Below are positions 10,152 to 13,914 of a stretch of DNA of 64,000 nt, in pieces. This DNA comes from Deltaproteobacteria bacterium. Its GTDB lineage: Bacteria; Desulfobacterota; Desulfobaccia; Desulfobaccales; Desulfobaccaceae. The position numbers and the translations under genes were made by a program. The notes under the pieces were generated by a model that was not told the DNA's origin, made no database searches, and saw nothing but the letters and a program-made list of their open reading frames with translations. Position 1 is the stretch's first letter, and each line of letters starts with the position of its first letter. The DNA lies in assembly GCA_019309545.1 (NCBI GenBank), contig JAFDGA010000001.1, forward strand, positions 1 through 64,000. Reading direction: 5' to 3'.

Positions 10152-11147
10152 TCAAGGCTTCAAAATCTCGGTCAGACGATCCAGGTTGTTCCGAGGGCCG
10201 ATGGCAATCAAGGTGTCTCCCAACAGAATGGGGGTATCAGGCCGGGGATTGAACAGCATCTGGCCGTCGGCCCGTTTGATGGCCACAATGATCAGGTCGA
10301 GCTTTTGGCGAATGCCAGAATCTCTGAGAGGGAGACCGATGATCTCCGAAGTCCCTCCTACCGGGATTTCCTCCAAAGTCAGGTTCACCCCACCTTTCAT
10401 GGCAATCTCAATGAAATCGACTACGGTGGGACGCAGAATCGTTTGGGCTAACCGATGGCCGCCGATCGCATGTGGGGCTACCACTTTATCGGCCCCGGCC
10501 CGAAACAGCTTCAGCTCCGAGCTTTCCTCTCGGGCCCGGGCGGCGATCAACAGTTGGGGGTTAAGGGTCCGGGCAGTGAGGACGATATAGACATTGTCAG
10601 CATCTGAATATACCGCCGCCACCAGCCCCCGGGCCCGATTCAATCCCGCGGTTTGTAAGACCTCCTCGTCCGTGGCATTGCCCGCGATATATAAATAGCC
10701 CGCCCGGTCTAATTTGGTGATGATCTCGGGGCGATTGTCTATCACCACCAGGGGAACCCCTGCTTTCCGAAGTTCCCCGACAATCACTTGCCCGAACCGG
10801 CCAAAACCGCAGATGATAAAGTGATTTTTTAATTTCTGAATCTCTTTTTCCAATCTTCGCCTTCCCAAGAATTCTCGGAGCTGTCCCTCCACGATCACCT
10901 GGGCCAGCGACCCGGTCACATAAACCAAAAAGCCCATACCTAAAAATATGAGCATGATGGTAAAAACCCGACCTGGTTTGGAAAGGGGGCTCACTTCCCC
11001 AAAACCCACAGTGGTCAGGGTGATGACCGTCATGTAAAGACCCTCAAAAAAGGCCCAGCCCTCGATTAAGACAAACCCCAGGGTACCCAGTAAGATGATG
11101 ATGAGCAGAAAGGCAAGGCCGATGAGCGTCCGTTTGAAACTGGTCAT
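10152..11147 (-). CDS. Two-helix potassium channel with RCK (TrkA) domains
   Basis: The 331-aa product has two transmembrane helices (about residues 8-30 and 62-86) flanking a pore loop with the selectivity filter TVGFGEV (46-52). A cytoplasmic RCK unit follows: HFIICGFGRFGQVIV with its Rossmann glycine motif near residue 110, VIDNRPE, and a TrkA-C domain in the last 90 residues. This is the MthK/GsuK type of ligand-gated K+ channel; the filter has Phe where TVGYG is usual, a known variant. It starts 35 bp after the FBP aldolase/phosphatase fusion gene, so co-transcription is likely. Confidence 0.9.
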   Translation of the reverse strand: MTSFKRTLIGLAFLLIIILLGTLGFVLIEGWAFFEGLYMTVITLTTVGFGEVSPLSKPGRVFTIMLIFLGMGFLVYVTGSLAQVIVEGQLREFLGRRRLEKEIQKLKNHFIICGFGRFGQVIVGELRKAGVPLVVIDNRPEIITKLDRAGYLYIAGNATDEEVLQTAGLNRARGLVAAVYSDADNVYIVLTARTLNPQLLIAARAREESSELKLFRAGADKVVAPHAIGGHRLAQTILRPTVVDFIEIAMKGGVNLTLEEIPVGGTSEIIGLPLRDSGIRQKLDLIIVAIKRADGQMLFNPRPDTPILLGDTLIAIGPRNNLDRLTEILKP

Positions 11148-11182: not shown

Positions 11183-13096
11183 TTATTCTTTTAACAATGC
11201 CTCGGCAACATAGGCGTCGGTAATCAGGACATTTAGGTACTTGCCTTTCAGCACGGCGCGGATAGCCTCTATCTTTTCCTGGCCCCCGGCCACCCCTACC
11301 ACATACCGATCCGGACGGGCGGCGCGCTCCCGCAATTCCATCGGACTGACCCCGATCATTCGTTGGCTTAGGGTTTGTAAGGCTGGATCCTCAAAGGTGG
11401 TCAGGGGTTCGCCATCGGCCCCGATCGGATTATGGTTAATCTCCGCCACTATCCCCAGATCGGCCAACTGCGCCGCGCTCAAACCCAACTCCTGACTGGC
11501 CAGGGCAATGAAACCGGGGCTACGGACCTGGACCGAGCCGATGCCCACAAACATGATCTCGGCTTCCCAGATATCTTTATAGATATCAAATGTTTCTGGA
11601 GTGGACAGGAGCTGCTGTTCATATTCCTGCCGGGAGGCCACCGGATGAGAAGGTAAGTTATAAGCAGTGGCTTCTGGATATTTGGTCCCCATCATGCTTA
11701 CCAGGGCATTGGCGGTCAGCCCCGGCATGGTGAAGATGGGGGTCATGGACAGCGGATATAGTTTGATCCCGGAAAATTTTCCAGGTTCCAGGAAGGTGAT
11801 CATCGAATACAGCGTGCGGCCGCCGGAAATGGCCACCCGGATACCGGATGCAACAATCTTTTCGAGGTAATGGGCCGCTTCCCGGGCAATGCTTTTTTCG
11901 ATGGCATCATAGTCGCGCAGACCCGGATCAACCACCCGGACTTCCCGAAGTTCCGGGTATTTTTGCTGGATCTGGGCTTCCAGTTCGGCGCGGCGGGGAA
12001 GAACTGATTTGGTAAAGATAAAAGCCATCACCTGAGGCAAAGTTGTATATTCCATATCCTGGAGATGGAGGCGATGGGGTTGGAAGGGGCCATGACGCCG
12101 CATATAATCGGCCACCAGATTGGCTTGGCGGCGGGCCTCATCAAAACTGGGGTCATCGAAGAGGTCCCGCGGCCCGATCAGTTTCCCGTGGCAGAGCTGG
12201 TAACCCGCCGCGATCACCCGGGGCGGTCCGTCAAACCGGGAGGGATTGGCATCTTTAAAGGCCACTGGCATGATCGGCCCATGATGGGAGCCGCGCATCC
12301 AACCCTCCACCAGATGAGGGAAGGCAAAGGTTTCCAAAATTTCCCCCAGGGCCGGAAAACCGGACTGTGATCGGACAATCAATACCGGGTCATCCTTACC
12401 AATGTAGCGGCCGGCGAGCAGTCCCAATTTCTGGGTAGAGGCAACGGCCCCGATCTCGCCGTCTTTTTTACGATAGATTGCCTCGATCAGATAACGGCCA
12501 GGGGCGCCGATCAGAACCAGCAGATCGTACATATCTTCAGGGCAGGAGAGTAGCCAGGTTTTGTGTTCAATAACATCCAACACCTGGAATCGGAAGCCAC
12601 GATGCATAGAGGGATCAATAACCAGGCCGATGGTATTAAACGGGTCCGCAAAGATTTTAAACAGCGGCAGGTTCCAGGCTCCAGGAGAAGTCTTGTCAGC
12701 CATGAAGATGACCACCGGTTCACTGGGACGCTCCACAAAGCTCAGCTCAGCCACCCCCGGGCCCATGCCCTTGATGTTCCCGGAAAAGGTATCGGCTAAC
12801 AGGTCCTGGCCGGCGCCGTAAAGTTTCATCTCTCTGGCCAGCTCGGTGAGCTGCTCAAAGGTGTTCCAGGCAAAGCGGTGAATTTCCGTGTCCTCGACCC
12901 CCCGGCGGTGGGTCATGATCAGCTGGACATCGTCACCGCAATGCAGCGCCTGACCATCGATCAGAAGTCCCCGCGCCACGGCATCTTGTAAAGCGTCCTG
13001 GGCGGCCTCCAGGACTCGCGGATGACAACTACTATGTCCAACATAGCCACCGATGTCAGCCTTGATTACCGAGAGAGTAAGTTTATCGCCTTCCAT
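11183..13096 (-). CDS. FBP aldolase/phosphatase fused to a CggR/SorC-type sugar-phosphate-binding domain
   Basis: Residues 1 to about 355 are a complete archaeal-type fructose-1,6-bisphosphate aldolase/phosphatase. IKADIGGYVGHSS and HCGDDV hold the metal ligands, then FMADKTSPGAWN, GRYIGKDDPV with Tyr231 and Lys234, RFDGPPRV, and EYTTLP with Tyr350. These fall 2 residues after the archaeal catalytic Tyr229/Lys232/Tyr348 as I recall that numbering, so both activities should be intact. Residues about 375-637 are a SorC/CggR sugar-bind domain (PF04198): VAISGGRTLYSM, IMFVGIGSV, RMIGVSPMELR, VVGVAGGQEKIEAI, VLITD. No helix-turn-helix is present. CggR uses this domain to sense FBP, so allosteric control of gluconeogenesis is inferred. 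The enzyme family alone is about 385-400 aa. Confidence 0.92.
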   Translation of the reverse strand: MEGDKLTLSVIKADIGGYVGHSSCHPRVLEAAQDALQDAVARGLLIDGQALHCGDDVQLIMTHRRGVEDTEIHRFAWNTFEQLTELAREMKLYGAGQDLLADTFSGNIKGMGPGVAELSFVERPSEPVVIFMADKTSPGAWNLPLFKIFADPFNTIGLVIDPSMHRGFRFQVLDVIEHKTWLLSCPEDMYDLLVLIGAPGRYLIEAIYRKKDGEIGAVASTQKLGLLAGRYIGKDDPVLIVRSQSGFPALGEILETFAFPHLVEGWMRGSHHGPIMPVAFKDANPSRFDGPPRVIAAGYQLCHGKLIGPRDLFDDPSFDEARRQANLVADYMRRHGPFQPHRLHLQDMEYTTLPQVMAFIFTKSVLPRRAELEAQIQQKYPELREVRVVDPGLRDYDAIEKSIAREAAHYLEKIVASGIRVAISGGRTLYSMITFLEPGKFSGIKLYPLSMTPIFTMPGLTANALVSMMGTKYPEATAYNLPSHPVASRQEYEQQLLSTPETFDIYKDIWEAEIMFVGIGSVQVRSPGFIALASQELGLSAAQLADLGIVAEINHNPIGADGEPLTTFEDPALQTLSQRMIGVSPMELRERAARPDRYVVGVAGGQEKIEAIRAVLKGKYLNVLITDAYVAEALLKE

Positions 13097-13278: not shown

Positions 13279-13914
13279 ATGGAAAAGGACATGCAGCGAG
13301 CAATAATGGTGGTTATGATGTGTTCGGTGGCCTGTTGGGGATGCAGCCGGACCTGGCATCCTCAGATGCTTCAGGGGCTGCCGCTAGCCCCGGGCCGCTA
13401 TCTGACCTTTTACTATCAGTCGCCCGATTTTAAGGCGGCCCAGGAGAGTTATCGCCTGGAGGATTTTGCGCTGGAAAAAGTGTCCGGGGTGGACAAGTCC
13501 CTGGCCGCCCGGATATTTCAGGAGGAATTGGTCTCCGCCCTGGAAAATAATGGCCTTACCCTTAAAGCTGAAGGTGCCGACTGTACGCTCTCCGGTCAGG
13601 TAGCACAACTCTACCTGCGGGGGCCGGTGCTCCGTTTGGTGAGTGGCAAGAGCTCCGCGGCTCTGAGCGTCGCCGGCGAGATTCGCCGAGGTCCGGAAGT
13701 CGTCTTCGCCTTTGCAGATCAGGTCCAGATCTCCCTGCCGATCAATCCCCGCTACCCAACCTCCATGGAGCCGGAGTTGATGGTGCGCCAAGTGCTACGT
13801 CGCTTTGCCGGCAATCTACTCAATGAGATGCTGCTGCCGCCGCCTGCCCCCCGGACAGACTCCATCCAGTCCGATCTGCCGGTGGATCAGGGAGTCTTGG
13901 CCGAAGACGGATAA
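13279..13914 (+). CDS. Probable lipoprotein of unknown function
   Basis: The 211-aa product starts with a short hydrophobic signal (MQRAIMVVMMCSVACWGC if begun at the second Met). The clustered Cys residues suggest lipidation, although the lipobox is not canonical. The mature part resembles DUF4410-type envelope lipoproteins: an early LAPGRYLTFYYQSPDF, an amphipathic core (AARIFQEELVSALENNGL), a beta-rich region (DCTLSGQVAQLYLRG) and a Pro-rich tail. Two Met codons four residues apart are both possible starts. Its 3' end overlaps the convergent DUF1573 gene by 28 bp. Function is unknown. Confidence 0.65.
   Translation: MEKDMQRAIMVVMMCSVACWGCSRTWHPQMLQGLPLAPGRYLTFYYQSPDFKAAQESYRLEDFALEKVSGVDKSLAARIFQEELVSALENNGLTLKAEGADCTLSGQVAQLYLRGPVLRLVSGKSSAALSVAGEIRRGPEVVFAFADQVQISLPINPRYPTSMEPELMVRQVLRRFAGNLLNEMLLPPPAPRTDSIQSDLPVDQGVLAEDG

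Follow-up and report, generated by a model that had tools for sequence, protein, structure and literature searches.

A fructose-1,6-bisphosphate aldolase/phosphatase fused to a SorC-type effector-binding domain, with possible direct control by a sugar phosphate

Introduction

The bifunctional fructose-1,6-bisphosphate (FBP) aldolase/phosphatase (FBPAP) is regarded as an ancestral gluconeogenic enzyme, and to our knowledge no built-in domain has been reported to control it allosterically. Here we analyze a gene in which an enzyme of this archaeal type is joined to the effector-binding domain of SorC-family transcription regulators. The gene lies in the first 64,000 nucleotides of contig JAFDGA010000001.1 (hereafter the window), from a Deltaproteobacteria bacterium of the order Desulfobaccales. 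An earlier, sequence-only reading of the window had singled out this gene and knew of no account of such a fusion; we likewise found none in the searchable literature, outside which most subscription journals lie.

In SorC regulators, binding of a phosphosugar to the effector-binding domain changes its conformation and alters the contacts between subunits (PMC11229326). The effectors of CggR are FBP and dihydroxyacetone phosphate (DHAP); DeoR binds deoxyribose-5-phosphate covalently (PMC11229326). In CggR, the 6-phosphate of FBP is held by two hydrogen bonds from Arg250, and the FBP-contacting positions Thr151, Thr152, Arg175, Arg250 and Glu269 have been mutated to weaken FBP binding (PMC6920703).

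Results and Discussion

The fused gene and its domains

The fused gene and its parts are located as follows:

11183..13096, minus strand: fused gene of 637 aa, FBPAP plus SorC-type effector-binding domain (open reading frame and both Pfam domains)
12020..13084, minus strand: FBPAP domain, residues 5-359 (PF01950 / NF041126; Pfam, NCBIfam and structure-sequence alignment)
11990..12019, minus strand: junction, residues 360-369 (comparison of the tail with standalone enzymes)
11189..11989, minus strand: SorC-family effector-binding domain (Sugar-bind, PF04198), residues 370-636 (Pfam, AlphaFold2 model and fold match)

The reading frame begins with ATG and continues for 637 codons without interruption; it is present as a single copy in its genome (2.43 Mb, 99% complete, 96 contigs). 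In a Pfam scan, the protein matched FBPase_3 at residues 5-359 (profile positions 1-355 of 361, E-value 3.6e-177, 589 bits) and Sugar-bind at residues 370-636 (profile positions 7-257 of 257, E-value 2.8e-36, 125.5 bits against a cut-off of 27), and no third domain. The helix-turn-helix of SorC regulators is missing, in that no helix-turn-helix family of Pfam matched the fused protein, whose N-terminal part is FBPase_3 instead. Both domains are present in all 20 aligned fusions. The fusion of FBPAP with a SorC-type effector-binding domain is therefore real. The sequence-only reading had described the gene in the same way, as one 637-aa frame that joins a complete archaeal-type FBPAP to a SorC-type ligand-binding domain and has no DNA-binding part; Pfam and NCBIfam agree with it, the domain search finds both FBPase_3 and Sugar-bind, and the coordinates it gave are correct, with only the minus strand to be added.

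The catalytic half scored 583 bits against the NCBIfam equivalog NF041126 (cut-off 520, profile positions 1-354 of 356) and aligned without gaps over 354 residues to ST0318 of Sulfolobus tokodaii (3r1m, 1umg); the Thermoproteus enzyme (3t2b) was also aligned to it. In the alignment with ST0318, Tyr231, Lys234 and Tyr350 correspond to ST0318 residues 229, 232 and 348, which we take to be the catalytic set:

12395..12406, minus strand: Tyr231 to Lys234 (YIGK), predicted Schiff-base lysine and its tyrosine
12047..12049, minus strand: Tyr350, predicted phosphatase/aldolase tyrosine

We assume these roles, for Lys234 with Tyr231 as well as for Tyr350, from established knowledge of the family. All three residues, which had already been judged intact from the sequence, show no variation across 21 fused and 69 unfused enzymes, nor do D14, H21, D55, D56, Q97, D134, D235 and D236, which include putative metal-site residues. 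The catalytic half is thus predicted to be a bifunctional aldolase and phosphatase. Standalone FBPAPs, with a median length of 366 aa, have their C terminus near residue 365, mostly within about 15 residues of the MEYTTLP motif (for example ...MEYTTLPQVMERLKGRFKED). Since the tail starts where the standalone enzyme naturally ends, the junction is clean.

Distribution and origin of the fusion

Within the order, 18 other genomes carry full-length fusions, at 68-88% identity and with no internal stops, and a nineteenth (G002) has the C-terminal part at a contig end. Independent named assemblies also have the fusion. Outside the order we found it in two further families of the same phylum and in one metagenome-assembled genome (MAG) of the Nitrospirota; these cases are Deltaproteobacteria bacterium AUK038 (L046, 62% identity), G162 (L148/L155, 62%) and Thermodesulfovibrio sp. 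SKYB3 (L047, 59%). The search for the same architecture in other genomes thus turned it up repeatedly, and the worry voiced in the sequence-only reading, that every close relative might lack it, has no basis, as it is conserved in close relatives. When 395 genomes sampled from the phylum were searched with a profile of the tail, only 15 had strong matches, all of them in frames of at least 640 aa; three further, weak matches lay in frames of 316-424 aa. SKYB3 is the sole fused case among 61 relatives, so that its fusion reflects either lateral transfer or a binning error or contamination.

A maximum-likelihood tree built from 97 FBPAP domains places the 21 fused enzymes in a single clade (Shimodaira-Hasegawa-like approximate likelihood ratio test 93), with one change of state. 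As all fused enzymes share one clade, the tree points to a single fusion event that was afterwards inherited and probably also passed on by transfer. A second, unfused FBPAP lineage exists within the order (L152, L153, L154, L159, L160, L161) and groups with Chloroflexota enzymes; L060 is an ordinary unfused FBPAP as well. Both types occur together in G010, G014 and G017, and in G014 the unfused copy adjoins a phosphofructokinase gene. These related unfused enzymes, some of them in the same genomes, are ready controls.

Substitution rates show that the tail is under purifying selection: its ratio of nonsynonymous to synonymous substitutions (dN/dS) is 0.06-0.17 in seven pairs, compared with 0.04-0.11 for the enzyme, with dS near saturation in the most distant of the pairs. 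The 20 genomes of the order that carry a Sugar-bind domain, and likewise G059 and G060, have no other than that of the fusion; in none of these did we find a free SorC regulator beside it. For this reason no regulator that these genomes still encode is the source of the tail, and a separate SorC regulator of the same genome was rejected as its donor.

Affinities of the tail

The sequence-only reading had called the tail CggR-type. We built a profile from 20 tails and matched it to members of the SorC family. The best match was 2r5f (81 bits), followed by DeoR (68), 2gnp (67), Lmo0547 (49), the SorC-like 3efb (46), LsrR (43) and CggR (42). An AlphaFold2 model of the tail (predicted local distance difference test, pLDDT, 92.6; predicted TM-score, pTM, 0.92) matches the fold of DeoR, SorC and LsrR. 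In Foldseek searches with this model, the DeoR effector-binding domain ranked first (E-value 2.6e-19, TM 0.77) and CggR about 28th (E-value about 1e-14). By profile and by predicted structure, the tail is thus nearer to DeoR-type domains than to CggR, and because CggR ranks lower in both comparisons, the label was too specific.

We then compared the ligand site by aligning the 20 tails with CggR (sequence checked against 8r3g) and DeoR. Three parts of it can be located from this alignment:

11813..11824, minus strand: GGxT phosphate-loop motif, residues 425-428, with Thr428 equivalent to CggR Thr152
11441..11443, minus strand: Glu552, equivalent to CggR Glu269, invariant
11273..11275, minus strand: Lys608, equivalent to CggR Lys310, invariant

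The equivalents of CggR Thr152, Glu269 and Lys310 are kept in 19, 20 and 20 of the 20 tails, respectively. Thr151 is replaced by Lys, Arg or His, and Gln185 by Thr or Ser. In all 20 tails Arg175 has become Ser or Thr and Arg250 Leu or Ile, the loop around Arg250 being the least certain stretch of the alignment and holding no conserved basic residue. DeoR Lys141, presumably the residue that forms the Schiff base with deoxyribose-5-phosphate, is Ser or Thr in every tail. Judged from these positions, one end of the phosphosugar site appears to be retained and the FBP-specific end not recognizably so. The ligand would most likely be a monophosphorylated sugar or a triose, such as fructose-6-phosphate (F6P) or DHAP, bound with a new specificity.

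Proposed function and alternatives

We consider it rather probable that an FBPAP gained a DeoR-like SorC domain once, and that this tail senses a phosphosugar and alters the activity or assembly of the enzyme. The catalytic half would condense DHAP and glyceraldehyde-3-phosphate to FBP and then remove one phosphate to yield F6P. The tail would bind a sugar or triose phosphate, most likely not FBP but a monophosphate such as F6P, glucose-6-phosphate, DHAP or a pentose phosphate. As in the SorC repressors, the ligand would shift the conformation of the tail and the contacts it makes within the oligomer. Passed on to the catalytic domain or the oligomer, this shift would change activity or assembly, and so couple a one-way gluconeogenic step to the level of a metabolite, in the presence of ATP-dependent phosphofructokinase and class I aldolase in the same cell. 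Both ligand binding by the tail and its effect on catalysis are inferred by analogy with the repressors; allosteric control of the fused FBPAP is plausible and a sound hypothesis.

Several observations count against this proposal. The C-terminal domain evolves faster than the enzyme (19% versus 51% invariant columns), and G003-G005 of the same order live with unfused FBPAP alone. In the full-length model (pTM 0.50), the junction region 328-364 has a pLDDT below 50, too low for conclusions on how the two halves are arranged. Finally, lacking CggR Arg175 and Arg250 and DeoR Lys141, the site is unlike that of every characterized SorC member compared, so that no ligand can be named and loss of binding is possible.

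With a site only half conserved, the tail could serve oligomerization or stability alone, bridging or capping the FBPAP octamer without sensing anything, much as SorC effector-binding domains provide the dimer-dimer contacts of repressors (PMC11229326). We regard this as unlikely, since the conserved columns extend beyond surface helices to the pocket residues Gly426, Thr428, Glu552 and Lys608.

A sensor specifically of FBP, the enzyme's own intermediate, as in CggR, was the ligand assignment of the sequence-only reading. The known effectors of CggR and the retained equivalents of Thr152, Glu269 and Lys310 are in its favor. Yet Arg175 and, as far as the somewhat uncertain alignment of its loop can tell, Arg250 are replaced throughout, and the tail resembles DeoR-type domains more than it does CggR. 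With three of six CggR site positions lost (Thr151, Arg175 and Arg250, the last of which holds the 6-phosphate), the assignment is not supported, and we consider such a sensor slightly less likely still than a purely structural tail.

A tail that acts as a second enzyme, of NagB/RpiA-like fold, for instance an isomerase that takes F6P onward, is quite improbable. Its model does match NagB weakly (5hj5, E-value 8e-4), but SorC-family folds match far better (E-values 1e-12 to 1e-19). The Asp-Gly-His that we take to be the NagB motif is absent at the GIG loop, where the fusion has GIGSVQVRSPGF (alignment inspected by eye). The F6P step is also not missing, as the genome encodes a phosphoglucose isomerase (PGI)-family protein, and a lack of PGI was rejected as the reason for an isomerase tail.

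An artefact, two genes merged by a frameshift or misassembly, has nothing in its favor except that the genome is a draft of 96 contigs and was rejected as practically inconceivable, given that the frame runs uninterrupted through all full-length homologues of independent assemblies, down to 59% identity, that the 18 full-length homologues without an internal stop exclude the hidden stop which the sequence-only reading had allowed for, and that purifying selection runs on through the tail.

Metabolic and genomic setting

Neither the class I FBPase (PF00316) nor the GlpX FBPase (PF03320) was found in the genome, nor was a class II FBP aldolase (PF01116). Two proteins pass the NCBIfam cut-offs for ATP-dependent phosphofructokinase and class I FBP aldolase, respectively, and a second phosphofructokinase-family protein and the PGI-family protein are also encoded. 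As far as the tested FBPase families go, the fused enzyme is thus the only candidate for the step from FBP to F6P. It would operate alongside this phosphofructokinase and aldolase, which work in the opposite direction, so that control of futile cycling is plausible and direct regulation would be of benefit.

The neighbors of the fusion encode a DUF1573 protein, a lipoprotein, a K+ channel, a UPF0173 hydrolase, RecJ and SSB, and are syntenic within the order. A metabolic operon was rejected: none of these genes is connected with gluconeogenesis, and AUK038 and SKYB3 lack the synteny. Two of them lie next to the fusion in the majority of the order's loci:

10152-11147, minus strand: K+ channel with TrkA-N and TrkA-C, beginning 36 bp past the stop codon of the fusion
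13279-13914, plus strand: divergent small lipoprotein-like open reading frame, without Pfam matches

Co-transcription of the fusion with the K+ channel is possible.

Comparison with known systems

By analogy, the architecture, which is carried by a group of bacteria related to sulfate reducers, suggests an enzyme that senses a metabolite and is directly switched by it. We see about an even chance that the sensor of a transcription factor was captured once and now, with a new ligand specificity, switches the enzyme directly, so that these bacteria can control gluconeogenesis post-translationally at the FBP node. If true, this would show a SorC effector-binding domain at work outside transcription. 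The conserved fusion would make it possible to test directly how unidirectional gluconeogenesis is restrained in bacteria that also have phosphofructokinase.

Compared with archaeal-type FBPAPs (PF01950, NF041126; 1umg, 3r1m, 3t2b), the fused protein shows the same full-length match and the same active-site and metal-site residues, but has 270 extra residues that form a second domain. With the DeoR-like branch of the SorC family (DeoR of B. subtilis, 4oqq/8r7y, and 2r5f of P. syringae), the tail shares the fold, the GGxT loop and the AGGxxK and TD motifs; it differs in having no helix-turn-helix, in being joined to an enzyme, in the Ser or Thr that replaces the Schiff-base Lys141 of DeoR, and in extra residues around 568-576 and 592-596. 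CggR (2okg, 3bxf, 8r3g) belongs to the same domain family and has the equivalents of Thr152, Glu269 and Lys310 in common with the tail, which lacks those of Arg175, Gln185 and Arg250 and is less similar to CggR than to DeoR in both sequence and fold.
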